Below are positions 4,326 to 21,903 of a stretch of DNA of 22,039 nt, piece by piece (the first letter of the stretch is position 1; every line of letters starts with the position of its first letter). Position numbers and translations under genes: made by a program. The stretch covers positions 1-22,039 of the IMG/VR virus record IMGVR_UViG_3300027763_002419. The stretch is one strand, 5' to 3'. A model generated the notes under the pieces. It had not been told where the DNA came from and made no database searches. It worked only from the letters and a program-made list of their open reading frames with translations. Source of the stretch: a virus.

Positions 4326-4345
4326 ATACAATACGGAGACATATT

Positions 4346-4651
4346 ATGATTACAATTACAGAAAACGCAAACGCAGAAATTGAAAAACTTCTAGTAGAAA
4401 ATGAAGAGCCGTTTCTACGAATAGCTATTCAAGGTGGTGGTTGTAGCGGATTTAGCTATGCTTTTGACTTCGATCAAACTAAAAATGAAGACGATTTTGA
4501 GTTTGGAAAAGTCATAGTTGACTCTATGAGCGCACAATATCTCCAAGGTGCTACATTAGATTTTACCGAAGATCTAATGGGAACTAATTTCAGCATTGAT
4601 AATCCAAATGCACAGACCAAGTGCGGTTGTGGAAGTAGCTTCTCAGTATGA
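4346..4651 (+). CDS. A-type iron-sulfur carrier (IscA/ErpA/HesB family)
   Basis: A 101-residue Fe-S scaffold/carrier. The three invariant cysteines are present: C33 in GGGCSGF and C93/C95 in the C-terminal CGCGSSF. These bind the cluster or iron delivered to apo-proteins. The start is the ATG with a GGAGAC Shine-Dalgarno 6 nt upstream; an in-frame TTG upstream lacks support. Its TGA overlaps the SOD start (ATGA), so the two are translationally coupled. It is clearly different from the second A-type protein at 5587, being more acidic with a longer mid-loop, so the phage carries two paralogues. I would call it ErpA-like without certainty. Confidence 0.92.
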   Translation: MITITENANAEIEKLLVENEEPFLRIAIQGGGCSGFSYAFDFDQTKNEDDFEFGKVIVDSMSAQYLQGATLDFTEDLMGTNFSIDNPNAQTKCGCGSSFSV

Positions 4652-5208
4652 CCATGCACTTTATCAAGTATCTTAAAGAGGATGCCGACGGCAGAGAACT
4701 TGTTCAAAGCAAACTAAAGTTTGATAAGAACGAGTTAGAACCTGTTATGAGCAAAGCAACTCTTGACTATCACTTTGACGGATTGGCCGCAAAGTATTTT
4801 GAAAGATACAATAAAGGTGAAGGTGACTCAAAGTTCAACTACGGTGGAGCAACACTACACAACTTGTTCTTTGCTGGACTTACTCCCGCAAGAGCCGCAA
4901 ATAAGCCCACAGGTGATAGTGCAGAACTTATTGATGCAGTCTACGGTAGTTTTGAAAAGTTTAAAGAAGCAGTAGAAAAAGAATTTATGGCCGCACAGGG
5001 ATCAAATTGGGTTTACATGGATCCAGGTGGCAAGTTACATACAATACACAATCACGAATACACAAAGGGCATGAGTATTGCTCTATTGATTGATGCTTGG
5101 GAACATGCATGGGCCCTAGACTATCAACAAAATAAAGTCAAGTATCTAGAAAATATTTGGCGAATTATCGATTGGTCAGTCGTAAATGACCGATTACAAG
5201 GAAGATAA
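4648..5208 (+). CDS. Fe/Mn-family superoxide dismutase
   Basis: A 186-residue SOD that converts superoxide to H2O2 and O2. The four metal ligands are visible: H42 (DYHF), H71 (ATLHNLFF), and D149/H153 (DAWEHAWALDY). Y50 fits the gateway tyrosine, and the KYLENIWRIIDW end is typical of the C-terminal domain. Differences from textbook enzymes are that the usual His-His pair after the first ligand reads Leu-Ala, and that by eye the outer-sphere position that is Gln in MnSOD is a His (N135-H136). Metal choice is therefore uncertain. There is no signal peptide, so it acts in the cytoplasm. It lies between an A-type carrier and iscU, suggesting protection of iron-sulfur assembly or of the di-iron NrdB. 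Confidence 0.9.
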   Translation: MTMHFIKYLKEDADGRELVQSKLKFDKNELEPVMSKATLDYHFDGLAAKYFERYNKGEGDSKFNYGGATLHNLFFAGLTPARAANKPTGDSAELIDAVYGSFEKFKEAVEKEFMAAQGSNWVYMDPGGKLHTIHNHEYTKGMSIALLIDAWEHAWALDYQQNKVKYLENIWRIIDWSVVNDRLQGR

Positions 5209-5210
5209 AA

Positions 5211-5603
5211 ATGGCATATAGCGATAAAGTAATAGACCACTATGAGAATCCGCGTAATGTGGGTTCATTTGGCAAGGAAGAAGAAGGTGTTGGCACAGGT
5301 ATGGTTGGCGCCCCTGCCTGCGGCGATGTGATGAAACTTCAAATTAAAGTTAGTAAAGATGGAATTATTCAAGATGCAAAATTTAAAACATACGGGTGCG
5401 GATCAGCAATTGCAAGCTCAAGTCTTGTTACAGAATGGGTCAAAGGCATGCACGTTGACCAGGCGTCAGCTCTTAAGAACAGCGACATCGCCGAGGAGTT
5501 GGCTCTTCCACCTGTTAAAATCCATTGCTCAATCCTTGCCGAAGACGCAATAAAAGCCGCAGTAGCAGACTATAAGGCCAAACAAAATGATCTCGTTAAC
5601 TGA
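5211..5603 (+). CDS. iscU: Iron-sulfur cluster scaffold protein IscU
   Basis: A 130-residue protein that aligns residue for residue with bacterial IscU (128 in E. coli), the scaffold on which IscS and iron build [2Fe-2S] clusters. All key residues are present: C37 and D39 (APACGD), C63 ([11 protein letters not shown]), and H105/C106 ([15 protein letters not shown]). The LPPVK motif (99-103) recognised by the Hsp70 HscA is intact, so the protein looks fully functional. A GGAAG Shine-Dalgarno precedes the ATG 2 nt after the SOD stop, and its end overlaps iscA by 17 nt. Neither IscS nor HscA/HscB is in the window, although a DnaK is encoded 5.5 kb downstream. The sequence is close to beta/gamma-proteobacterial IscU, pointing to acquisition from such a host. 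Confidence 0.95.
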
Positions 5604-5907
5604 TCACGCGGCTGTAAAAGTTCAGCGCCAACTAGAACGCAGAGGCAAGGGTCTTGGATTACGAGTTGGTGTGAGAACTACTGGCTGTAGTGGATTGGCC
5701 TACATCCTCGAGTATGTTGATAGTATAAATCCAGAAGATCAATGTTTTGAATCAAAAGGATGTAAACTATTTGTTGATCCAAAAAGTCTTGCCTATGTGG
5801 CAGGTTTGGAAGTAGATTGGGTTCGCAACGGACTCAATGAAGGATTTGAATTTGCCAATCCAAATGAACGTGATCGTTGCGGTTGCGGTGAGTCGTTTCG
5901 CGTCTAA
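5587..5907 (+). CDS. iscA: IscA-type iron-sulfur carrier
   Basis: A 106-residue protein very like E. coli IscA throughout, with [21 protein letters not shown], then [24 protein letters not shown]. Cluster-binding cysteines are C34, C98 and C100. In bacteria IscA accepts clusters or iron from IscU and passes them to targets; iscU followed by iscA is the native isc operon order. The start overlaps the last 17 nt of iscU, and the ATG codon is followed by a frame that is convincing from residue 2. It is the last gene of the Fe-S operon, and a new consensus promoter starts 11 nt downstream. Confidence 0.95.
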
Positions 5908-8685: not shown

Positions 8686-10005
8686 ATGATATTTTCAATT
8701 TTACTAGCTCTCTCAGGATTAACATTAAGTGCAGTAGCAATCTATTATTCAGTGATAGGACTAACGTCAATATTTGCGGCCGCATTTTGGCCTGTTGTCG
8801 TTATGGGCACTACATTAGAAGTATCCAAACTGGTAGCTGCCAGTTGGTTAAAAGCACATTGGTCTCAAATACCAAAGCTGATGAAAACCTACATGAGCAT
8901 AGCTGTTATAATATTGATGTTTATTACCAGCATGGGAATCTTTGGCTATCTATCAAAAGCACACTTAGATCAAAATATTGTTAGTGGGGATGTACAATCA
9001 AAGATAAGCATATATGACGAAAAGATTAAAACCGCGAAAGAAAATATTGAGAGTAACCGTAAACAACTTAAACAGATGGATGAGGCAGTGGACCAAGTTA
9101 TGGCACGAAGCCAAGACGAAAAGGGAGCAGACAAGGCCAACGCTATCCGTAAAAGTCAGTCCCGCGATCGAGTTGCTCTTGCCAAAGACATTGAAGCCAA
9201 CCAGAAGCTCGTTATACAACTTAACGACGAGGCCGCACCAATTCGTGCAGAAGTACGCAAAGTTGAAGCAGAAGTCGGTCCTATAAAATATATTGCGGCA
9301 TTAATCTACGGTGATAATCCAGACCAAAATATACTAGAAAAAGCAGTCACATGGGTCATCATGATCATTGTGTTTGTGTTTGATCCTTTGGCAGTCTTAA
9401 TGCTGTTAGCCGCTCAAATGACTTGGGCATGGCGAAAAGAAAATGCGGAGGGTGACAGCCCACCAGGACCGGTTGCTGATATAGTCTCCTCGGAACCCAC
9501 TGTCACAGAATCCAGTAATGATCCTGCATACGAACAAGATGATGGCCCACTAACTGAAGAACAAATTGACCAAATACAAGAGCTTGCCAAAGAAGACTTA
9601 CCCCAAGGTGAGTTGATAGTTAAAGATGAGTTATTTCCAAAAGAAGAACCAGTTGAAACTGTAGACAGCACAATGCCAGTCGCTGATATTGATGCTTGGA
9701 ACAAAATGATCGAAGCCGCAGAAGCTGAAGTTGCTAAAGAAAAAGAATCTACATTACAAGAACGTTTGGCCACAGGCGAAACATATATAGACGGTCAAGG
9801 CGAGGAAGTCGCTCTAGATGAAGGCACAGAGTTCCCATCGAACCCAACTAAGGGTATGAAGTTTACTCGAACAGATTTCAATCCGCCAAGAGCATGTATG
9901 TTTGATGGCGCACAATGGATTGATGATGTTGAAATCGACGAGTCTAAAAAAAAGACCTACATAGTCAAGGAAGACAATCAACAAGTCAAGAAGATAGTGG
10001 AGTAA
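8686..10005 (+). CDS. Large membrane protein with coiled coil and charged C-terminal region
   Basis: A 439-residue protein of unknown function. Helices at about 3-22, 25-45 and 66-90 form an N-terminal membrane block. Residues about 100-195 are a highly charged coiled coil (KIKTAKENIESNRKQLKQM, then DIEANQKLVIQLNDEAAPIRAEV). A further TM helix lies at about 222-245 (VTWVIMIIVFVFDPLAVLMLLA). The remaining ~190 residues are acidic and probably disordered, ending in a small motif (GMKFTRTDFNPPRACMFDGAQWID). That motif resembles the KG-x-Y/F-x-RTD...FDG-x-W module common in phage structural proteins. I recall comparable multi-TM coiled-coil proteins in aquatic T4-like phages, all uncharacterised. 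A role in spanning or remodelling the inner membrane is plausible but unproven. Confidence 0.78.
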   Translation: MIFSILLALSGLTLSAVAIYYSVIGLTSIFAAAFWPVVVMGTTLEVSKLVAASWLKAHWSQIPKLMKTYMSIAVIILMFITSMGIFGYLSKAHLDQNIVSGDVQSKISIYDEKIKTAKENIESNRKQLKQMDEAVDQVMARSQDEKGADKANAIRKSQSRDRVALAKDIEANQKLVIQLNDEAAPIRAEVRKVEAEVGPIKYIAALIYGDNPDQNILEKAVTWVIMIIVFVFDPLAVLMLLAAQMTWAWRKENAEGDSPPGPVADIVSSEPTVTESSNDPAYEQDDGPLTEEQIDQIQELAKEDLPQGELIVKDELFPKEEPVETVDSTMPVADIDAWNKMIEAAEAEVAKEKESTLQERLATGETYIDGQGEEVALDEGTEFPSNPTKGMKFTRTDFNPPRACMFDGAQWIDDVEIDESKKKTYIVKEDNQQVKKIVE

Positions 10006-10071: not shown

Positions 10072-10461
10072 ATGCAGAATAGCATAAAAATAATCACACC
10101 CCCAGATTTGATATTTGATCAAACAAACTCAATGTTACTAGTATGTCCTAGTACAGAACTAAAAAAATCCCTAGAAGAATATCTGGCCACGCATGAAGAA
10201 GCAGTTAATATCTATTTGTTCAGCAATGAAATAGATATCAAATGGTTGTTAATTACTGCAAAAATGACAGACGTTATCATTATAGATATTGATAACTGTG
10301 GATCTAATGTTAGCCACTTTCTAGGCTACCTTTTGACTCTGCCTAATACATATTATAAGTGTGAGCACATGCAGGTGCAATGGGATTTAATAAATCAAAA
10401 TAGATTTTTTGATTTTCCAAATATATCAAAGGACTCAAATGAGAGAGAATCAGTACAATAA
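10072..10461 (+). CDS. Uncharacterised phage protein upstream of bS21
   Basis: A 129-residue protein with an alternating alpha/beta pattern. Strands are suggested at [17 protein letters not shown] and [11 protein letters not shown], and helices at [25 protein letters not shown] and [11 protein letters not shown]. The arrangement resembles a small Rossmann-like or response-regulator-like fold, but no catalytic motif is evident. It starts with no gap after the 20-residue peptide frame, and its 3' end overlaps the bS21 gene by 23 nt, so all three are probably co-translated. Function unknown. Confidence 0.7.
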
Positions 10462-10681
10462 GTTTATAGGTAATACGGTTTTTGTAAAAGACGGAGAGCC
10501 TATTGAACGAGCATTACGCAAGTTTAAAAAGAAAGTCCAAGACAGCGGACTTCTAAACGATTTACGTGCCCGTGAGTTTTATGAGAAACCCACTACAGAA
10601 CGTAAACGTAAAAAGTCAGCCGCAAAAAACCGTTGGCAAAAAGAGTTAGCCAAGCAGTCCCTACCTAAGAAAATGTATTAA
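10439..10681 (+). CDS. rpsU: Phage-encoded ribosomal protein bS21
   Basis: An 80-residue homologue of bacterial S21 (71 in E. coli). The core [43 protein letters not shown] matches the family signature (ALRRFKR...[15 protein letters not shown]), and the tail is basic and ends in Tyr. The ATG at 10439 is chosen because AAAGGA lies 5 nt upstream; an earlier in-frame TTG is unsupported. bS21 binds the 30S platform near the anti-Shine-Dalgarno end of 16S rRNA and is needed for initiation on natural mRNAs. Viral bS21 copies are established in aquatic phages and are thought to replace host S21 in the ribosome and bias translation. The N-terminus ([13 protein letters not shown]) is about 12 residues longer than usual. 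Confidence 0.92.
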
Positions 10682-11054: not shown

Positions 11055-12926
11055 ATGAGCAAAGTCATCGGTATCGATTTAGGTACAACAAATTCATGCG
11101 TATCCATTATTGAAAATGGAGTCACAAAGGTAATCGAAAACAGCGAAGGCGCACGTACTACACCAAGTATTGTTGCATACGCTAACAACGAAATCCTAGT
11201 AGGCGCAAGCGCAAAGCGTCAAGCAGTAACAAATCCCAAAAATACAATCTATGCGGCCAAGCGTTTAATCGGACGTAAGTTTGATGAACAGGCTGTGCAA
11301 AAGGACATCGACTTGATGCCTTATAGTATTGTCAAAGCTGACAATGGTGATGCATGGGTCGAAGTAAATGGCGACAAACTAGCACCTCCACAAATTTCAG
11401 CGGAAGTGTTGCGTAAAATGAAAAAGACAGCGGAGGATTATCTTGGTGCAACAGTTACTCAAGCAGTTATCACAGTACCGGCTTACTTTAATGACAGCCA
11501 AAGACAGGCAACTAAAGATGCTGGAAAGATCGCAGGCTTGGAAGTACTTCGTATTATTAACGAGCCTACTGCGGCAGCTCTTGCTTATGGCGTTGATAAA
11601 GCTGATAAAAGAGATAGGAAAATTGCTGTTTACGATCTTGGTGGTGGTACATTCGACGTATCAATCATTGAAATCGCGAATGTGGAAGGCGATAAACAGA
11701 TCGAAGTACTAAGCACCAATGGTGATACATTCTTGGGTGGTGAAGACTTTGACCAACGTATTATGGATTTCCTTGTTGAAGAGTTTAAGAAAGAAAGCGG
11801 AGTTGATCTAAAGAGCGACATCCTTTCTTTACAACGACTAAAAGAAGCCGCTGAAAAAGCCAAGATCGAATTGTCTAGCAGTGCAAGTACCAGTGTTAAC
11901 TTACCATACATCACAGCAGATGCAAGTGGTCCTAAGCACATGAACATTACGATCAGTCGTAGTAAACTAGAAAGTCTAGTTGAAGAATTAATACAACGTT
12001 CAGTGGGTCCATGTCAAACTGCTATTAAAGATGCAGGTGTTTCGTTAGATGAGATCGACGAAGTTATTCTAGTCGGTGGTATGACTCGTATGCCTAAGGT
12101 ACAAGAAACAGTTGAAAAGCTGTTTGGCAAGGCACCACGTAAAGATGTTAACCCAGACGAAGCAGTTGCGGCGGGTGCGGCAATTCAAGGTGCTGTTCTA
12201 GCAGGTGATCGTAATGACGTTCTATTACTTGACGTTACACCTTTGAGCTTAGGCATTGAAACAATGGGCGGAGTGTTTACCAAATTGATTCAAAAGAACA
12301 CAACTATTCCAACTAAGCACAGCCAAACATTCTCAACAGCAGAAGATAATCAACCAGCAGTTACTATTAAAGTTGGCCAAGGTGAGCGTGAGCTTGCACA
12401 GTACAACAAATCGTTAGGAGAGTTTAATCTAGAAGGTATTCCGCCAGCTCGTCGTGGTACTCCACAGATTGAAGTTACTCTTGATATTGATGCTAATGGT
12501 ATTTTGAACGTAAGTGCCAAAGATAAAAATACCGGCAAAGAAAATAAGATCACTATTAAAGCCAACAGTGGACTAAGCGATGCAGAGATTCAACAAATGA
12601 TTCGCGATGCTGAAACCAATGCTGAAGAAGATAAAAAGACAGTAGAACTAGTTACTGCACGTAATAGTGCAGAGGCACAAGTTCATGAAATCCGTAAGGA
12701 TCTAGAAGAAGTAAAAGACAAGTTAACAGCTGAACAGGTAACCAAGATTGAAGAAGCCGCTACAGCAGTTGACGAAGCAGTCAAGGGCACAGACAAAGAA
12801 GCTATCACGCAGAAAGTCAGTGACTTGTTTGCCGCGGCACAACCATTAATGGAAGCCAAGGCACAACCTCAGCCACAAACAGGTGAATCAGAAACTGTTA
12901 ATGCTGAGTTTAAAGAAACTGTTTAA
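11055..12926 (+). CDS. dnaK: Hsp70 chaperone DnaK
   Basis: A 623-residue near-full-length DnaK (E. coli 638). It has the phosphate-1 motif [10 protein letters not shown] (5-14), [16 protein letters not shown], and the adenosine motif [13 protein letters not shown]. The interdomain linker [19 protein letters not shown] lies near residue 390, then the beta substrate-binding domain and helical lid follow. The ATPase and linker residues look intact, so the protein should be active. The C-terminus is a short Gln/Pro/Glu tail ending FKETV and lacks the usual EEVKDKK-like end. Sequence in the substrate domain ([30 protein letters not shown]) is strikingly betaproteobacterial-like from memory. No dnaJ or grpE is nearby, so host co-chaperones are presumably used. 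A complete dnaK is unusual for a phage. Confidence 0.95.
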
Positions 12927-12996: not shown

Positions 12997-13422
12997 ATGA
13001 CTCAACTAAGAACTATCGACACGGCGGCTCTTGCCCATCTAAGTAGAGCACTAATCGGTTTTGATCGTATTTTTAGCGATGCCGAAAATCGAACACAGAC
13101 TAACAACTATCCCCCATTTAATCTTGTCAAACACAGTGAAAGTAACTTTGAGATAGAACTTGCTGTTGCAGGTTTTAGCAAAGCTGAAATCACTGTGGAG
13201 ATTGATCAGGATCAGTTGATCATCCGTGGACAGAAAGTAGCAGACGACTCTAAAGAATACCTACATCGTGGCCTGGCCGCTCGTGACTTTGAAAAGTCAT
13301 GGACACTGGCAGATCACATGGAAGTGGACGAAGTGGAGTTGACAAACGGTATATTAAGTGTTAAAATAACACGTATGATACCTGAAGCACTTAAACCACG
13401 TTTGATTGCCATTAAGGGTTAA
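12997..13422 (+). CDS. Small heat-shock protein (Hsp20/IbpA-like)
   Basis: A 141-residue holdase chaperone that keeps unfolding clients soluble for DnaK-dependent refolding. The N-terminal ALIGFDRIF and YPPFNLVK match IbpA-type sHSPs. The alpha-crystallin domain spans about 38-128 (IELAVAGFSKAEITVEIDQDQLIIRG ... LTNGILSVKI). The C-terminal IAI at 137-139 is the conserved I-x-I oligomerisation motif. Hsp20 genes are known in many T4-like cyanophages, so this is less unusual than its dnaK neighbour. Shared leader sequence suggests coordinated control with dnaK. Two hairpins follow the stop. Confidence 0.93.
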   Translation: MTQLRTIDTAALAHLSRALIGFDRIFSDAENRTQTNNYPPFNLVKHSESNFEIELAVAGFSKAEITVEIDQDQLIIRGQKVADDSKEYLHRGLAARDFEKSWTLADHMEVDEVELTNGILSVKITRMIPEALKPRLIAIKG

Positions 13423-13452
13423 TCGTTAACCGGGGAGAAGTAACATTCTCCC
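13417..13452 (+). terminator. Tandem hairpins after hsp20
   Basis: GGTTAA-TCG-TTAACC (13417-13431, overlapping the stop codon) is followed immediately by GGGAGAA-GTAACA-TTCTCCC (13433-13452); both stems are perfect. No T-run follows, so they may be RNA-processing or stability elements rather than efficient intrinsic terminators. Confidence 0.45.
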
Positions 13453-13453
13453 T

Positions 13454-13482: not shown

Positions 13483-13791
13483 ATGGCGATCACAGATCTT
13501 GAAGTAAAAATTGACGAGAAAGTCAAAACCGTAATAACTGAGCCTAAGCGTTATAAAGTTATTTTTCTAAACGATGATAAAACTCCAATTGAGTTTGTTA
13601 TTGATTTATTAAAATCTGTGTTTAGACACACCGATGAAACTGCCAAAGATATTACGCTCAAAGTACACAACGAAGGGTCTGCTGTTGTTGGAGTCTATAG
13701 TTTTGAAATTGCAGAACAAAAAGGCGTCGAAGCTACTAACTTGGCTAGACAAGCAGGCTTTCCATTACAGATAAAGATTGATCCAGAATGA
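13483..13791 (+). CDS. clpS: ClpS-like Clp protease adaptor
   Basis: A 102-residue adaptor that delivers N-degron substrates to ClpAP. After a 22-residue flexible N-terminus, the fold signature is clear: YKVIFLNDDKTPIEFVIDLL (N30/D31/D32 of the substrate pocket), VHNEGSAVVGVYSFEIAE (pocket His62) and LARQAGFPLQIKIDPE. The pocket residues known to read N-terminal Phe/Leu/Trp/Tyr are present. Its stop overlaps the heme oxygenase start (ATGA). It could redirect host ClpAP to new substrates or protect others during infection; this is inference. Together with dnaK and hsp20 it makes a proteostasis group. Confidence 0.93.
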   Translation: MAITDLEVKIDEKVKTVITEPKRYKVIFLNDDKTPIEFVIDLLKSVFRHTDETAKDITLKVHNEGSAVVGVYSFEIAEQKGVEATNLARQAGFPLQIKIDPE

Positions 13792-14345
13792 GTCTAAAAG
13801 AACTAACACACGAAGCGCACCGCAATGCTGAGACTCAGCCCTTTGTTAAGGTTCTATTCTCGGGCAAGATTAGCCCTAAGTTGTATGCAACATTTCTAAA
13901 AAATCAACATCCTTGTTATGAGATTTTAGAAGTATGTGCTATGCCACATGGTTTGTTAAATGATTATCCCGAGGTACGTAGAGCACCTTCAATATTATCA
14001 GACTTCCAAGAATTGTGGAATGAAGAAGATGGTAGCCCACCAATGTGCGAAGCTACTAATAACTACATCAAATATATTTTGAGTATTAAAGACGATCCTA
14101 AGAAATTACTAGCACATTTATATGTACGACACTTCGGAGATCTATCCGGTGGACAGATGATTAAGAAGCGGGTGCCGGGACAGGGTCGTATGTATCAATT
14201 TGGTGACGATCCAGATACTATCAAAACAATCCTACGTGCTAAACTAAGCGACGATCTTGCCGAAGAAGCAAAGGTATGTTTCCAATATGCCGCTGACTTA
14301 TTTGCAGACATGATGCAGTTTGTGGAGCCGGCTAATGAGCAGTAA
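13788..14345 (+). CDS. Heme oxygenase
   Basis: A 185-residue heme oxygenase, which cleaves heme to biliverdin, CO and Fe2+ using reduced ferredoxin. The proximal-ligand segment LTHEAHRNAETQPF gives heme-ligating H11, and the distal-helix motif is GDLSGGQ (117-123) preceded by HLYVRHF. Length is a little short of cyanobacterial HO1 (about 240), comparable to compact bacterial HemO. The start overlaps the clpS stop and its last 11 nt overlap the bilin reductase, so HO and its downstream enzyme are translationally coupled. Phage HO genes are known from cyanophages and from uncultured viruses carrying pcyX. The released iron may be as important as the bilin in this genome. Confidence 0.93.
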   Translation: MSLKELTHEAHRNAETQPFVKVLFSGKISPKLYATFLKNQHPCYEILEVCAMPHGLLNDYPEVRRAPSILSDFQELWNEEDGSPPMCEATNNYIKYILSIKDDPKKLLAHLYVRHFGDLSGGQMIKKRVPGQGRMYQFGDDPDTIKTILRAKLSDDLAEEAKVCFQYAADLFADMMQFVEPANEQ

Positions 14346-15018
14346 TGTATGGGACACATTAATTAAAATTCAAGAATACCTTGAATCACGTTTTTATGCA
14401 ACAGGCAGTATTATACACGAACCCGGAATGGATCGTTTTAATCAGCCAGGTTGGGTTAACAAAGTATGGGCCAGCAGTCGCTATCGCCGTGCCCACATTG
14501 ACGTAGTAGATGCTCGTGAAACAAAAGGCCTATGGATGATGCATTGTTGCATTTTTCCACATACTCATAACCCTGCTCCAATTTTTGGCTTTGACGTTAT
14601 AGCCGGTAAAAACAAGATTACTGGCTGTTTCATTGATTATAGCCCTGGCGGCGACAAAGAACATCCTATGATTGAATACTTTGGAGAAGAAGTAGGTCGA
14701 TACGAATGGAACAAAAAACGCAAATTACCAGAATGGGCAGAGCGTATTTTCAGTGAGCATATGGTGGCCGCAGGCAATGTTAGCGATGAAGCTGAGTTAA
14801 AACAACTTACTAGCCTGGCACATATACTAATTAATCACTATTTAGAATGTGTAGACGAAACCAACAAAACCGCTAACGATACTACAGAATCACAGAACTA
14901 TTACTGTGAGAATCAAAAGCAAAACCCACATACTCCTAAAGTTATGGTTAGTTTAGGGCTAAGTGAGGAAGATGTGCAGGTGTTTATACACGATTGTCTG
15001 TTCCCTGAAATCCGCTAA
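14335..15018 (+). CDS. Ferredoxin-dependent bilin reductase, PcyX/PebS type
   Basis: A 227-residue FDBR that reduces biliverdin made by the adjacent heme oxygenase. Family features: the SSRYRRAHIDVVDARETKGLWMMH N-terminal strand region, APIFGFDVIAGKNKITGCFIDYSP with D87 at the position of the catalytic Asp of PcyA/PebS, and a C-terminal YYCENQKQNPHTPKVMVSLGLSEED...LF like the final helix of FDBRs. The start is the ATG at 14335, with GGAG 7 nt upstream; an earlier in-frame TTG is unlikely. HO plus a small FDBR in a phage without cyanobacterial signatures fits PcyX, described from uncultured marine viruses and shown to form phycoerythrobilin from biliverdin. PebS is the alternative. The exact product cannot be told from sequence by eye. 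Confidence 0.85.
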   Translation: MSSNVWDTLIKIQEYLESRFYATGSIIHEPGMDRFNQPGWVNKVWASSRYRRAHIDVVDARETKGLWMMHCCIFPHTHNPAPIFGFDVIAGKNKITGCFIDYSPGGDKEHPMIEYFGEEVGRYEWNKKRKLPEWAERIFSEHMVAAGNVSDEAELKQLTSLAHILINHYLECVDETNKTANDTTESQNYYCENQKQNPHTPKVMVSLGLSEEDVQVFIHDCLFPEIR

Positions 15019-16594: not shown

Positions 16595-17101
16595 ATGAAA
16601 AAAATCCTAGCAACATTGGGGATAATGCTGGCCACCATAGCCACCGCAGCCCCTCTAGGTGATTACCAGTTTAAAAGTCCAAGTTTTAATGGAGTTGGAT
16701 ATAGTTCTCACGTGCTGACCATTGAGAATCAAGAAGCAGTAAGACAAAAGGCTCGAGATGACAAAGTACAGTCGGCATTAGACAAGGCGGCTAGTGATAT
16801 TAAAAATACAAACTTATCAAAGTTTCTAAACAATTTAGAATCACGTATCTACGCACAAATAAGTCAAAACGTAGCAACGGCCATGTTTGCCAATAATAGT
16901 TGTAGTGTAGCAACTAGCTCAACATGTACCGGGTCTATCACATTCCAAGGTAGTACTATTAGTTGGTCAAGAGTAAGTGATGCTATAAACTGCACAGGAT
17001 CAGCAAACGGTACTTGCATTTTATTAAATGTAAAAGATCCAGGCGGAAGTACTACATCAATATATGTTCCGTTAGAATCATTTAACATGCCAGGAAACTA
17101 A
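16595..17101 (+). CDS. csgF: Curli assembly factor CsgF
   Basis: A 168-residue exported protein. The signal peptide is MKKILATLGIMLATIATAA, and the mature N-terminus PLGDYQFKSPSFNG matches the conserved CsgF segment (FQFRNPNFGG) that inserts into the CsgG channel. A helical neck (about residues 46-95) and a C-terminal head domain follow. The head has four cysteines (C103, C111, C133, C141) that E. coli CsgF lacks, probably two disulfides, and a vDPGGSTTSIYVPLESF end typical of environmental CsgF. A GGGAG Shine-Dalgarno lies 8 nt before the ATG. In curli systems CsgF couples secretion to nucleation at the cell surface. csgG starts 3 nt after its stop. Confidence 0.88.
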   Translation: MKKILATLGIMLATIATAAPLGDYQFKSPSFNGVGYSSHVLTIENQEAVRQKARDDKVQSALDKAASDIKNTNLSKFLNNLESRIYAQISQNVATAMFANNSCSVATSSTCTGSITFQGSTISWSRVSDAINCTGSANGTCILLNVKDPGGSTTSIYVPLESFNMPGN

Positions 17102-17104
17102 GAT

Positions 17105-18430
17105 ATGACACGTACATTATTATCATTATCTATAGTTGCTTTATTAAGTGGCTGTGCGGCAATACAAAGCACTGGCTTATCAGAAGCTGATCCAACTGTT
17201 ACAACTTCCATGCGAGGTGTCAAAAAAGAGTTTGACACCATTCCTGCACCAGCCGCAGGTAAGCCAGTTAGTGTGGCAGTTTATAGTTTTGCTGACAAGA
17301 CTGGACAACGTAGACCACAAGCAAACGTAGCTAGTTTAAGTTCGGCAGTTACACAAGGTGCTGAAACATTCTTAATACAGGCACTACAGGGTGTTGGACA
17401 AGGACAATGGTTTGAAGTTGTTGAACGTGTGGGCATTGATAACTTGACCAAAGAACGATTAATCATTCGTCAGATGCGTGAAGCCTATGAAGGCAACAAT
17501 GCTAGACCTCTGATGCCAATGCAGTTTGCCGGCATGATCATCGAAGGTGGCATTGTAGGTTACGACACTACTGTTAACAGTGGTGGTGCTGGCATGCGTA
17601 TATTTGGCATTGGCAAACAAACACAATGGAGTCAAGATACTGTTACAATTAGTGTGCGAGCAGTTAGTGTAAACACAGGCAAAGTTCTAGCAGTGGTAAC
17701 AGTACAGAAAACTATTTTATCAACAGCAGATTCGGCAACAGCATTAAAGTTCTTTGATGCTGGTACACAGGCATTTGAAGCAGAAGCAGGATTAACAATT
17801 AACGAACCTGGCACTTATGCAGTTAAAGCCGCAATTGAAATGGCAGTAGTAGAGTTAATCAAAGAAGGACAACGTAAGGCAATTTGGGATTACAAATCAA
17901 ATGTTCCTGTAGCTATTGCACCACCAGTAGTTGAAAAACCAGTACCGCCAGCGCCAGTCATATCATCAGAAATAAGAAAGCCTGAGGAGAAGAAAAATGA
18001 GTTGGTTCAAGCATCGCCCACCAAAGAATCCACCCCTATCCAAGAGTCACTCGCAGCCGCACCACAGCAGTCCGATGAGCGAAAAATACCTGCAGGAATC
18101 GAAGGAAAAAGTGAAACCATTAAAGAAGAAATAGTTACTAAAATAACAGCTAAACCTGAAGTTAAAAAAGCGGATGCAGATTTAAAAGTAACAGACATGC
18201 AGACAGGAGTAAAGCCAACTATAACACTGTTTGGTGAACGAGTATTAAAAGAAAATTCGTTTTTATATGCAGAAGAAAAAGAAACAAGTACCAAGAAGTG
18301 GTGGTTTGCCAAAGGTACTGTAATGAGCATTAGACAGCCAGGAACAGAAGGTTGGTGGAGAGTAACAGTAGCAGACGGTACTGACCGTGGGGGTTGGATA
18401 CAGTCTAATAAGTTAGAAGACAAGAAGTAA
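17105..18430 (+). CDS. csgG: Curli secretion channel CsgG with C-terminal SH3-like extension
   Basis: A 441-residue lipoprotein; E. coli CsgG is 277. Lipobox LLSGC gives lipidated Cys17. Residues about 47-265 cover the whole CsgG domain: SVAVYSFADKTGQ, QWFEVVERVGIDNLTKERLIIRQ, MIIEGGIVGYDTTVNSGGAGMRIFGIG, VRAVSVNTGKVLAVVTVQKTIL, INEPGTYAVKAAIE. CsgG oligomers form the outer-membrane pore for amyloid subunits. The residues facing the E. coli constriction (Y51, N55, F56) appear replaced here by non-aromatic ones (around Q72-L78). After the CsgG domain come ~100 Pro/Lys/Glu-rich residues and then residues 372-438, an SH3-like beta domain (ITLFGERVLKENSFLYAEE, WWFAKGTVMSI, GWWRVTVADGTDRGGWIQSNKL). 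Such domains often bind cell wall, which would be new for CsgG. Confidence 0.93.
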   Translation: MTRTLLSLSIVALLSGCAAIQSTGLSEADPTVTTSMRGVKKEFDTIPAPAAGKPVSVAVYSFADKTGQRRPQANVASLSSAVTQGAETFLIQALQGVGQGQWFEVVERVGIDNLTKERLIIRQMREAYEGNNARPLMPMQFAGMIIEGGIVGYDTTVNSGGAGMRIFGIGKQTQWSQDTVTISVRAVSVNTGKVLAVVTVQKTILSTADSATALKFFDAGTQAFEAEAGLTINEPGTYAVKAAIEMAVVELIKEGQRKAIWDYKSNVPVAIAPPVVEKPVPPAPVISSEIRKPEEKKNELVQASPTKESTPIQESLAAAPQQSDERKIPAGIEGKSETIKEEIVTKITAKPEVKKADADLKVTDMQTGVKPTITLFGERVLKENSFLYAEEKETSTKKWWFAKGTVMSIRQPGTEGWWRVTVADGTDRGGWIQSNKLEDKK

Positions 18431-18431
18431 T

Positions 18432-18468
18432 GGTGTTGTTTTTTTTACAGTGTAAATTTTTTAACACC
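18432..18468 (+). repeat. Bipartite dyad centred at 18450
   Basis: GGTGTT (18432-18437) and AACACC (18463-18468), and the inner TTTACA-G-TGTAAA (18444-18456), share one symmetry centre; only the T-rich segments between them mismatch. It lies 2 nt after the csgG stop and 116 nt before the curlin gene. Candidate operator or RNA hairpin. Confidence 0.45.
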
Positions 18469-18496
18469 TAGAGGTAACGATATTTTAACAGCGGCA

Positions 18497-18525
18497 TATA
18501 ATTTCGAAAGGAGCCGGCTTAAATA
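18497..18525 (+). promoter_or_regulatory. Candidate promoter elements before the curlin gene
   Basis: TATAAT (18497-18502) lacks a convincing -35. CTTAAATA (18518-18525) belongs to the late-type family. Either could start a transcript for the curlin/FecR genes independent of csgF-csgG. The 153-nt gap also holds three AAGG-type Shine-Dalgarno sequences. Confidence 0.35.
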
Positions 18526-18547
18526 TTTTAAAGGGACATGGAATCCC

Positions 18548-18587
18548 AAAGGAGCGTACTATGTTAAACTATCATAGTATGATATGA
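18548..18587 (+). promoter_or_regulatory. Upstream micro-ORF overlapping the curlin start
   Basis: AAAGGAG (18548-18554) precedes an ATG at 18561 by 6 nt. The frame encodes MLNYHSMI, and its TGA (18585-18587) overlaps the curlin ATG at 18584 as ATGA. TACTATG (18557-18563) and CATAGTA (18573-18579) form a hairpin over this ATG. The curlin start has no close Shine-Dalgarno of its own, so translation is probably coupled to this leader. Confidence 0.5.
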
Positions 18588-19546
18588 AGATGAAAAAAAG
18601 AATGACAGGCGTTGGTGAGTTGTCGAGAAAATTACTCACAGTGGTGCTTTTAAGCGTTTCAGCCATAAGCTGGGCCGCAGATAACAGTATTTACATCGAC
18701 CAAGCGGGCGATAACAGCACAGTCACGATGACACAAGATGGCGCTGGCAACAGAGTCAAAGGAATATTAACTAATGGAACAGCTGGTGCTAGTACAGACC
18801 CTGCTAAACTAGTAGGCAATAATCAAACTGTTACTGTTAACCAAGCAGGACCGAATAACGTACTTACATTAGGAGCCAACAGTACAGTTGGAACTACTGG
18901 TAAAGGTATTGATATCAACTATCAAGTTGATGTTGGCGGCAACATTGGTTTTATTAACAGTAATAATAATGGTCAAGGTGTTAGTGCTAGTAACTTGATT
19001 GATATTATTCAGTTAGGTGGTAATGCTATTGCTACAGTAAGCATGTTAGGTAATACCAATAGTCTAACTGTTAGATCTAGTGGTGGTGGTGGCAATAGTA
19101 TCGTAGCTGACATTAATGCTGATAATGTTACAGCAGTTGTGGATCAAACATTAGGTGGCGGTAACGAAACTATTCTTAACCTAACAGGTAATAAGGGTAG
19201 TGTAAACATTACTAGTACCGGTGCAACTAACCTTTCTAATGTAACACAAAGCGGTGGTGGTGTAAATGGTAACGATGTTAAAATTGTTCTAGACGGTTCT
19301 GGTAACCAAACTACAGTAAGCCAAGCAGGTGTGAGCGATAACACAGTTGATTATAAAGTAATGGGATCAAACAACATTGCTAGTATTGTACAGAGTGGCG
19401 GACTAAGTATTGGTCAATATGCAAAAGCAGACATTTCTGGATCTAACAACGATATTGGTATAACACAGCAGGGTAGCGTAGATAATGTAGCTAATATTAA
19501 GATCACAGGAAGTTTTAATACTTACAGAATCTTACAGAAGAATTAA
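18584..19546 (+). CDS. Curlin-repeat amyloid subunit (CsgA/CsgB-like)
   Basis: A 320-residue secreted protein. After a signal peptide (MKMKKR..LLTVVLLSVSAISWAA; ATG 18590 is an alternative start) the mature chain is built of degenerate curlin repeats of the S/I-x-I-x-Q-x-G-x-x-N-x-x-x-I/V-x-Q type. Examples are IYIDQAGDNSTVTMTQDGAGN, TVTVNQAGPNN, NQTTVSQAGVSDN and IGITQQGSVDN. The motif is spread over about 285 residues, roughly twice the length of E. coli CsgA. Chain composition is Gly/Asn/Thr/Val-rich with no cysteine, as in functional amyloids. It follows csgG by 153 nt and precedes the FecR-domain gene by 9 nt. CsgG/CsgF would export it. No CsgE or CsgC is seen. Confidence 0.9.
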   Translation: MKMKKRMTGVGELSRKLLTVVLLSVSAISWAADNSIYIDQAGDNSTVTMTQDGAGNRVKGILTNGTAGASTDPAKLVGNNQTVTVNQAGPNNVLTLGANSTVGTTGKGIDINYQVDVGGNIGFINSNNNGQGVSASNLIDIIQLGGNAIATVSMLGNTNSLTVRSSGGGGNSIVADINADNVTAVVDQTLGGGNETILNLTGNKGSVNITSTGATNLSNVTQSGGGVNGNDVKIVLDGSGNQTTVSQAGVSDNTVDYKVMGSNNIASIVQSGGLSIGQYAKADISGSNNDIGITQQGSVDNVANIKITGSFNTYRILQKN

Positions 19547-19555
19547 GGGGCATGA

Positions 19556-20668
19556 ATGAAATCGTGGATAGCAATACTGTGCTTGGTTGCACTTGGTAGT
19601 TCATCTAGCCACGCGGCAATTGGTAAAGTAACAGAGCAACTTAACACTCCTCCTAGCATCCAGAGAGCAAATCAAACACTCTCTGGTGCCAAGGGCACTG
19701 GGGTGGAGATGAATGACTCCATAAAGACACAACAAGGTAAAGTAGGTATCACCTTTGAAGACGACACTCGTGTGCAGGTCAACGAAAACTCAAAGTTAGT
19801 CATAGACGATTTTGTTTACGATCCTAAATCAAAAGCAGGTAAACTTGGTGCTAAGATTGCATTAGGTACTGTACGTTATGCTAGCGGACAGATTGCTAAG
19901 AATAGCCCACAAAACGTAGCACTCAATACTCCAACAGCAACTATATCTGTACGTGGTACAGACTTTACAGCATCAGTAGACGAGCTTGGCCAAAGTACTG
20001 TTATTCTGTTACCCAGTTGCCCCGATGACCGCAATAAAAGTAGAACTAAAGACGATATAGAAAAGAACTGTAAGGTAGGAGAAATTACAGTTGAAAGTGA
20101 TGCAGGAATTGTCATATTAAATCAAGCCTTTCAAGCAACACAGGTTAACAGTCGTAGTCAGCCTCCAAGCCGTCCTGTAATACTAAACCTAAGCGAAGAT
20201 GCCATTGGCAATATGCTGTTGTTAAGTCCACCTAAAGAACTTAAAGAAGCTGGCAAGAATGATAAAGGCAATAATAAAAGTTATCTAGACGTTGATTTCT
20301 TAAAAGAAAAAGGACTAGAAAATGCTCTTGAAATGCAAATAGCCAGCATGTATGTTGATCGTCTAGCACAAAACTTTTTAGATAACCAGTTCCTTGCCAG
20401 CATATTTGACATGATAGGTAATGGACTAAGTGAAAACTTTTTAGCAGAAATTGATACTGTATTACCTGACTATAAAAAATCTAGCGGCATTGTTGCTCTC
20501 AAAGATGATATGACTGTTAGCCTATGTCGAGATAGTGGCAGTGACATTCAGTGTGTTACAACACCGTTGACACAAAACTCTACAATATATCAAACTCAGG
20601 GATCATTGGAGTTTAAGAATCGTGTTAATCAAGGCAACAATACTATTATTACCATAGTACAAAAATAA
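19556..20668 (+). CDS. Secreted FecR-domain protein with curlin-like C-terminus
   Basis: A 370-residue exported protein. The signal peptide is MKSWIAILCLVALGSSSSHA. Residues about 46-145 form a FecR-type beta domain (GTGVEMNDSIKTQQGKVGITFEDDTRVQVNENSKLVIDDFVYDP ... VALNTPTATISVRGTDF), as in large periplasmic and surface FecR proteins. Unlike the canonical FecR signalling protein, no TM helix or sigma-factor partner is visible. Residues 155-172 hold a charged Cys-flanked insertion, and about 225-320 are helical. The last residues, VNQGNNTIITIVQK, read as one curlin repeat unit. AAGGGG lies 5 nt before the ATG. Its TAA overlaps the next ATG (TAATG). It may organise or nucleate the curlin fibres. 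Confidence 0.85.
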   Translation: MKSWIAILCLVALGSSSSHAAIGKVTEQLNTPPSIQRANQTLSGAKGTGVEMNDSIKTQQGKVGITFEDDTRVQVNENSKLVIDDFVYDPKSKAGKLGAKIALGTVRYASGQIAKNSPQNVALNTPTATISVRGTDFTASVDELGQSTVILLPSCPDDRNKSRTKDDIEKNCKVGEITVESDAGIVILNQAFQATQVNSRSQPPSRPVILNLSEDAIGNMLLLSPPKELKEAGKNDKGNNKSYLDVDFLKEKGLENALEMQIASMYVDRLAQNFLDNQFLASIFDMIGNGLSENFLAEIDTVLPDYKKSSGIVALKDDMTVSLCRDSGSDIQCVTTPLTQNSTIYQTQGSLEFKNRVNQGNNTIITIVQK

Positions 20669-21903
20669 TGAAACGTCTACTACAGTTCTTATTCTTATTA
20701 ACTGTATGTGTTAGCGCATACAGTCAAGCATCTGGGTTAGCTGACTTAAAATTTGGCTCAGCACAGATAGCAGATAGCCAATGGAATGTTCAGGCCTGTA
20801 CCCAAACGGCAACTTGCCAAATCTATAGTAAGAATCCCGGAACAGCATATAAGATTCCGTGGTGGAGTGGACAACTGACTTGGGCCGCCGGAGATTACGT
20901 TAAGTTTAAAACAACCGGTGATTCTACAAATCCGTGGGAAGCAATACAGTATACCACTAACGGAACACAAAAAGCAGTAATGGGCACTGGACATATTGTT
21001 AACATGGGCAACGACTATTTTTTCTTTGTAGGTAATGATAATGACACCGGTCAGTTGTTTAGTATGACTCAAGGATTTGCTAATACTAGTGGCGTTACAT
21101 GGACAGGTACTCTAAATCCCACTGTGGCACAAACTAATGCATACGCAACTAATGGTAGTACAACTCCATTAGCCGCAGGGCAAACTGCCGCGCCACCTCC
21201 GCCTGCAGGTCCTACGATAGAAGGCGGAACTATAACACAGACTAATGCTCCTGCCAATCAGACTTTTACCAGTGGTGGATCAAGTTCAGCTGGACCTACC
21301 TCTTCTCAGACAACAAGATATAATGCATGGAATAACGGTGTCCAAGCGCCTGACAACTATTTGTATATTGAGCAAGTAGGCGGAAATTATAACACAGTTA
21401 ACATTACACAATCTGGTGTAAAGAATACTATGGATCTTGGTATTAACGGCGGATCAAATACTATCAATGCTACACAAACTGGTGCAAACTATTTAAATGC
21501 ATTGGTACAAGGTAATACTAATGCCGTTACTAGTTTGCAAACTAACACTAGTGGCACACATTATCAAGAAACAAAGATAATGAACGGTAATAACAATACT
21601 ATAAGCACAATACAAAAAGACAACGGCAATAGTTTAATGTTTAATACCGTTACAGGTAATAGCAATACTATTACAGCAGTACAAGAGGGTGCCGGAAATC
21701 ATTACTTAGAAAGTAAATTATTAGGCAATGGAAATAATGTTACAGCCAATCAGTCAGGCTCAACTGGTAACAAAGCCAATATAGATTTAACTAATGCAGG
21801 CGGATCATCTAGCGTTGACTTACAACAGTCAGGCGGCAAATCATTTACCATAATTCAAAGTTGTACCAATCCAGCAGGGTGTAGCACAGTAATTCGACAG
21901 TGA
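20668..21903 (+). CDS. Two-part curlin-repeat adhesin with novel N-terminal domain
   Basis: A 411-residue secreted protein with signal peptide MKRLLQFLFLLTVCVSAYSQ. Residues about 25-155 form a Trp- and aromatic-rich beta domain with a disulfide candidate (C44/C50), matching nothing I recognise. Residues 160-225 are a Thr/Pro/Ser/Gly linker (AAPPPPAGP). Residues 231-411 are curlin repeats (YLYIEQVGGNYNTVNITQSG, NTINATQTGAN, NTISTIQKDNGN, NTITAVQEGAGN), ending in a Cys pair (C399, C405) and VIRQ. The fibre-forming half could add a displayed N-terminal domain to the amyloid, in a CsgB-like or tip-adhesin role. Start overlaps the FecR stop by 1 nt, so synthesis is coupled. Confidence 0.85.
   Translation: MKRLLQFLFLLTVCVSAYSQASGLADLKFGSAQIADSQWNVQACTQTATCQIYSKNPGTAYKIPWWSGQLTWAAGDYVKFKTTGDSTNPWEAIQYTTNGTQKAVMGTGHIVNMGNDYFFFVGNDNDTGQLFSMTQGFANTSGVTWTGTLNPTVAQTNAYATNGSTTPLAAGQTAAPPPPAGPTIEGGTITQTNAPANQTFTSGGSSSAGPTSSQTTRYNAWNNGVQAPDNYLYIEQVGGNYNTVNITQSGVKNTMDLGINGGSNTINATQTGANYLNALVQGNTNAVTSLQTNTSGTHYQETKIMNGNNNTISTIQKDNGNSLMFNTVTGNSNTITAVQEGAGNHYLESKLLGNGNNVTANQSGSTGNKANIDLTNAGGSSSVDLQQSGGKSFTIIQSCTNPAGCSTVIRQ

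Follow-up and report, generated by a model that had tools for sequence, protein, structure and literature searches.

The window, that is, the whole stretch of 22,039 nucleotides of the IMG/VR record IMGVR_UViG_3300027763_002419, encodes a heme oxygenase (HO) and, overlapping with it, a ferredoxin-dependent bilin reductase (FDBR) of the PcyX type. The reading preferred here, to which a probability of about 60% is assigned, is that these genes are the downstream part of a phage bilin pathway in which phycoerythrobilin (PEB) would be the wanted product, most likely with a redox role.

Organization of the clpS-HO-pcyX run

The HO gene (positions 13788–14345, plus strand; Pfam PF01126 Heme_oxygenase, E 1.5e-21) starts with the ATG at 13788, ends with the TAA at 14343–14345 and codes for 185 residues, and the FDBR gene (14335–15018, plus strand; PF05996 Fe_bilin_red, E 3.2e-18) extends from the ATG at 14335 to a stop at 15018 and codes for 227 residues. 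Neither frame has internal stops, and the two overlap by 11 nt (14335–14345); coordinates as well as Pfam matches are in agreement with the overlapping gene pair described in the initial annotation. The overlapping run is opened by clpS (13483–13791, plus strand; PF02617, E 1.8e-28), the gene of the N-degron adaptor, whose stop shares 4 nt with the HO start (ATGA, 13788–13791). Upstream of the cassette are the conserved context gene dnaK (11055–12926, plus strand; PF00012, E 5e-258) and the gene of an hsp20/IbpA-like small heat shock protein (12997–13422, plus strand; PF00011, E 7.8e-16).

The order dnaK-hsp20-clpS-HO-FDBR is retained in most jumbo-phage loci. The clpS gene adjoins HO-FDBR in most relatives, and in most jumbo-phage loci HO and FDBR either overlap or directly adjoin each other, with intervening genes in a few. 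In one locus (L347, 3539–5310) a QueF-like and an adenosylhomocysteinase-like protein, both named by reading the sequence, are encoded between the two. When compared with relatives, the dN/dS values, where computable, are about 0.02–0.09 for the FDBR and 0.04–0.10 for HO. Both genes are under purifying selection, and the constraint on the FDBR is as strong as for any gene tested.

A hairpin, GGGGAGAA-GTAACA-TTCTCCCT, is located between hsp20 and clpS (13432–13453, plus strand). It has a short, G-rich/C-rich stem, closed in the window by the hexaloop GTAACA, and is present in 96 of 101 distinct clpS leaders (among relatives L002–L081, L191–L228 and L269–L347), 76 of these having a GNRA loop. 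The mean minimum free energy of the leaders is −16.8, compared with −6.9 after shuffling, but for the leader of the window the advantage over shuffled versions is only modest (z −1.55). Changes on both sides are seen at 8/8 hairpin pairs, a statistic that is biased in that each leader was aligned by the position of its own hairpin; the presence and folding-energy comparisons are fairer evidence than the covariation statistics. Rfam has no match for this hairpin, and the 356-kb relative has only three such GNRA hairpins genome-wide. It may act on clpS-HO-pcyX at the level of translation or of RNA stability, and ClpS, HO and PcyX, having overlapping ORFs, would probably be co-translated behind it.

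A sigma-70-like promoter candidate, TTGACA-17-TAAAAT (13339–13367, plus strand), lies within the 3' end of hsp20, upstream of clpS; it has 11/12 consensus matches and an identical sequence in relative L003, which is weak evidence for a promoter. The sequence CTAAATA upstream of clpS was considered as a late-promoter motif and rejected, being neither conserved nor more frequent than expected by chance over the window. An excess of TAAATA is seen near clpS.

The reductase is of the PcyX type

By sequence, the closest solved structure is that of PcyX_EBK42635 (Protein Data Bank [PDB] entry: 5owg), with an E value of 2e-66, when PcyA is matched at about 1e-17. The AlphaFold model of the window FDBR (mean pLDDT 93) also has 5owg as its top PDB match, with a TM score of 0.93 (target-normalised) and an rmsd of 1.5, followed in rank by PcyA, PebB, PebA, HY2 and PebS. 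In the FDBR tree, the window sequence groups with PcyX and with the Mosig-like and jumbo-phage sequences (support 99/95), apart from PcyA and PebS; this tree was built without alphaproteobacterial PcyA and without the FDBR of phage CB_2, and in its final form it excludes three very divergent, long-branched FDBR-like frames of one genome (G390). The protein is thus placed among the PcyX sequences of the FDBR tree, and not outside the family, the outcome named by the initial annotation as counting against its reading.

Asp56, His70 and Asp87 of the window protein correspond to Asp55, His69 and Asp86 of PcyX (PcyX positions were assigned by counting, with the conserved His/Asp pattern as the reference), and the equivalents of these residues are kept in 203, 205 and 204 of 205 sequences, respectively. 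Both catalytic aspartates are therefore present on alignment, and the PcyX-type reading is upheld by sequence, tree, predicted structure and active-site residues. Marine phage PcyX makes PEB, and Asp55 distinguishes the PEB-making PcyX from the CB_2 PcyA, which makes phycocyanobilin (PCB) (PMC11480375). From its grouping with PcyX, its active-site residues and its fold, PEB is therefore the predicted product of the window reductase.

It could also be considered that the enzyme is PcyA-like and makes PCB, or that it makes another bilin. The only NCBIfam match of the window FDBR is the PcyA model, with a score below the cut-off of that model, and the FDBR of the freshwater phage CB_2 proved to be a PcyA (PMC11480375). 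Asp55, which is retained in the window and in nearly all relatives, is however absent in CB_2 and is a glutamate in the cyanophage PcyA row of the alignment; the tree also sides with PcyX, away from PcyA, and PcyX is the best structural match. A product other than PEB is therefore quite unlikely.

The heme oxygenase has been replaced repeatedly

The HO sequence matches heme oxygenases of the PDB, down to an E value of 3.7e-13, and the fold of its AlphaFold model matches those of HmuO, HO-1 and HO-2. The proximal histidine, His11, is conserved, and so is the distal-helix motif GD(L/M)xGG, which is GDLSGG (residues 117–122) in the window; the human HO-1 row of the alignment is excluded from the evidence. 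The protein is predicted to convert heme into biliverdin IX-alpha, CO and iron.

The HOs of the relatives form two lineages, which are about 40% identical to each other. When the HO type is mapped on the FDBR tree, nine changes are counted, at least five of which are forced by supported branches, and the AU test rejects a single clade for HO type B (p = 0.0016). The HO gene was therefore exchanged several times beside an FDBR that was retained. In the type B proteins (L005, L009 and L020, compared with L002, L003, L027 and others), the distal-helix sequence is often GDLFGGQ rather than GDLSGGQ.

With the FDBR as query, 325 stretches of IMG/VR were found to encode relatives, and the 80 best of these were examined; scans seeded with three different HO queries gave 200 HO loci. 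An FDBR is found beside HO in 189 of the 191 testable loci, the further nine of the 200 ending too near to judge; two marine contigs with HO have no FDBR within 3 kb. The pairing of HO and FDBR is near-obligate.

In one genome scan for bacterial sources, PcyX gave six matches, five on contigs of metagenome-assembled genomes (MAGs) and one being a decayed copy in Shewanella surugensis. A bacterial source of PcyX was considered and dismissed; at least one of the five MAG contigs is a jumbo-phage contig binned into a MAG. This marine contig (L166, 335 kb, Neomarinimicrobiota MAG) has the order hsp20-clpS-HO-nitrilase-FDBR, the nitrilase-like gene between HO and FDBR being named by reading the sequence. 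The genome of Shewanella surugensis DSM 17177 contains a decaying cassette, with HO and an FDBR frame that is truncated close to a transposase gene (L168, 7456–8225; L233); its second FDBR copy has an asparagine at the Asp55 position. FDBRs are rare in the sampled class (3/369 genomes), G390 being one of the genomes with a match.

Phage group, host and habitat

Four relatives are records of 345–364 kb, each with a T4-type capsid protein (PF07068). The capsid protein of the 356-kb relative, one of the four compared, is 68–72% identical to those of Sinorhizobium phage Phosso, Vibrio phage 2.275.O and Serratia phage BF, a capsid group which we take to be RaK2-type. The 22-kb window itself has no capsid gene, and the evidence on capsid and genome size comes from these relatives. 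In a tree with a small reference set, the DnaK of the phages branches as the sister of that of betaproteobacteria (97/96), and the window IscU matches the proteobacterial IscU model, both of which bear out the proteobacterial-like character noted for these proteins in the initial annotation, as does the lack of photosynthesis genes in the window for its non-cyanobacterial character. Judged by these sequence affinities, the phages are probably jumbo myophages of about 350 kb with a RaK2-type capsid, infecting non-phototrophic hosts, which we infer to be beta- or gammaproteobacteria.

A cyanobacterial host, in which the cassette would maintain phycobilisomes, is suggested by the other FDBR-bearing isolate phages, which are cyanophages, and cyanophages with pebS or pcyA and ho1 have, as here, a phage-borne HO and FDBR. 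A signature of such a host is however absent: the DnaK and capsid affinities point elsewhere, the capsid of the relative being closest to those of jumbo phages of proteobacteria. PebS is a distant FDBR, cyanophage PcyA is only 23–31% identical to the window FDBR, and the records of P-SSM2 pebS and P-SSM4 pcyA have no two-gene overlap with HO. It is highly improbable that the host is a cyanobacterium.

Two relatives (L003 and L192) were sampled in a study of freshwater bacterioplankton (PMC7527133; metagenomes 3300020160 and 3300020141), and four others (L008, L019, L053 and L074) are from the metagenome 3300009164 of Lake Simoncouche (PMC10960955). According to PMC11480375, PcyX had been known only from marine viruses. 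A freshwater-lake jumbo-phage branch of PcyX, with its gene context, its HO replacement and its near-obligate pairing, is new, and no earlier report of the gene pair in these jumbo phages was found in open-licence PMC papers.

Several other genes of the window may be mentioned. A curli-type cluster (16595–21903) encodes CsgF, CsgG, a curlin-repeat protein, an FecR-domain protein and a second curlin-like protein. In pelagimyophages csgF and csgG are present and CsgA/CsgB-like subunits were considered to be missing (PMC7029224); unlike in that picture, curlin repeats (PF07012) are detectable here. Ribosomal protein bS21 is also phage-encoded (10445–10678; PF01165), and a tetraspanin-like membrane protein (8686–10005; Pfam match below the curated cut-off) is common to Mosig, Flavobacterium, Xanthomonas and other large phages.

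Pathway context and the possible role of the bilin

A gene of 5-aminolevulinate (ALA) synthase (TIGR01821, over the cut-off) is found in 10 of 17 records, including three of the four records of about 350 kb and a 72-kb contig of the close relative L003, where it is about 60 kb from the cassette; it is not found in the 22-kb window nor in one record of about 345 kb. The two ALA synthase genes that were examined are intact and have the GTLGKA motif. In the jumbo-phage records, including the four of about 350 kb, there is no model match for Fer2 ferredoxin or GAF, and phycobilisome proteins are not found above the cut-off; a PF00502 phycobilisome match in one record (G009) was dismissed, being below the cut-off and inside a 753-residue frame. 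Ferrochelatase also has no model match in these records, but the model missed the annotated ferrochelatase of Mosig as well, which makes this a weak negative.

In the preferred reading, HO would open host heme, generating biliverdin IX-alpha, CO and Fe(II), and PcyX would then catalyse the four-electron reduction of biliverdin into PEB, presumably with host ferredoxin as the donor. The phage ALA synthase, encoded elsewhere in the genomes of most relatives, would feed the entry of the tetrapyrrole pathway, such that the phage would add flux at ALA and withdraw it as PEB. The formation of PEB would pull HO forward, and the released iron could go to Fe-S and di-iron proteins.

It is also possible, although somewhat unlikely as the whole explanation, that the cassette serves heme-iron salvage, an option already raised in the initial annotation. 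HO would then free the iron of host heme for a phage-directed use by IscU/IscA/ErpA, Fe-SOD and the di-iron ribonucleotide reductase, and PcyX would just clear biliverdin, whose retention on HO otherwise slows the enzyme. This is in agreement with the gene content of the window, where the ribonucleotide reductase small subunit, ErpA, an Fe-SOD-like protein, IscU and IscA are all encoded within 22 kb, and with the occurrence of IscU in 12 of 17 records; iron supply is also discussed in PMC11480375, and ALA synthase could top up heme while HO serves iron. In the window, the genes of ErpA, the Fe/Mn-SOD-like protein, IscU and IscA are consecutive (4343–5907), forming a phage Fe-S assembly module. 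Iron salvage alone nevertheless fits poorly, because heme made by the phage, as expected from the ALA synthase of most relatives, only returns the iron that was put in, and because the FDBR is strictly kept while HO is exchanged. The constraint on the FDBR, being at least as strong as that on HO, and its retention beside nearly every HO are too much for a disposable clean-up enzyme, and the Isc genes near the cassette vary among the relatives. Iron salvage is thus weakened as a complete account and is still a real rival.

The presence of ALA synthase and the strict retention of the FDBR therefore favour the bilin as the wanted product: PEB would probably be made for its own sake, beyond a mere waste of iron release. 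It is unlikely that PEB is supplied as a chromophore, bound by a photoreceptor or globin of host or phage. With the product of the CB_2 phage PcyA, a functional phytochrome is formed in E. coli (PMC11480375), some heterotrophs have globins that bind bilins (PMC10151467), PEB in a phytochrome would give a photo-inactive adduct that could jam host light signalling, and an acceptor without known domains can be envisaged. The search for bilin-binding GAF proteins proposed in the initial annotation, in its phage part, however gave none, and the phage records, including the four of about 350 kb, also encode no phycobiliprotein above the cut-off. PEB would be no light-harvesting pigment here; a redox-active linear tetrapyrrole, acting as radical scavenger or electron sink, is its most likely role, and this is a guess.

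Comparison with known systems

The arrangement of HO and PcyX is less novel than the initial annotation implied. The two genes are already annotated as neighbours in Pelagibacter phage Mosig EXVC030M (MT647606), which is in culture, and the pair is also known from marine metagenomes. Phages whose hosts are not phototrophic have been described with hemO-pcyA/X(-alaS) cassettes, the purpose of which is called enigmatic (Wegner 2024, PMC11480375). Heterotrophic bacteria, too, have FDBRs (Rockwell 2023, PMC10151467), whereas the initial annotation had assigned the family to phototrophs and cyanophages, with PcyX as the known exception.

In Mosig and in the marine metagenome cassette of PcyX (EBK42635, 5owg), HO is directly followed by an overlapping PcyX-type FDBR, as here, the catalytic residues are the same, and the host (SAR11) is non-phototrophic. 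The sequences are however only 48% (FDBR) and 44% (HO) identical between Mosig and the window. Mosig, a T4-like pelagiphage, has a genome of 141 kb, its own ferredoxin and the cassette beside the neck genes, whereas here the phages are of about 350 kb with a RaK2-type capsid, the cassette follows dnaK-hsp20-clpS, the relatives are without Fer2 ferredoxin, and ALA synthase is far away.

The valaS-hemO-pcyA/X loci, including that of the freshwater pmoC-phage CB_2, resemble the relatives in having ALA synthase, HO and FDBR in one genome, and CB_2 also resembles them in its freshwater occurrence and non-phototrophic host. The CB_2 FDBR, without Asp55, makes PCB (PMC11480375), whereas the FDBR described here is PcyX-type with Asp55, and the alaS gene of the relatives is tens of kb from the cassette and not inside it.

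The RaK2-type jumbo myophages BF, 2.275.O and Phosso share the capsid group with the 356-kb relative, and in Phosso hsp20 and clpS are close together, as here. No HO or FDBR match was found among the RaK2-type isolates of the phage collection; the Phosso gene after clpS was considered as an HO remnant and was discarded, having no Pfam match.

Taken as a whole, it can tentatively be proposed that lake jumbo phages of non-phototrophs have a split de novo bilin pathway, with ALA synthase at its entry and HO and PcyX at its exit, in which PEB would be a free, non-photosynthetic metabolite and the operon would be coupled to ClpS and have a dedicated leader RNA hairpin. What PcyX is used for in hosts that have no phycobilisomes is recognized as an open question. 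The combination of PcyX, near-obligate HO pairing and ALA synthase is relevant to whether the cassette serves iron salvage or pigment production, and the freshwater jumbo-phage clade makes the PcyX question testable in new, possibly cultivable hosts.
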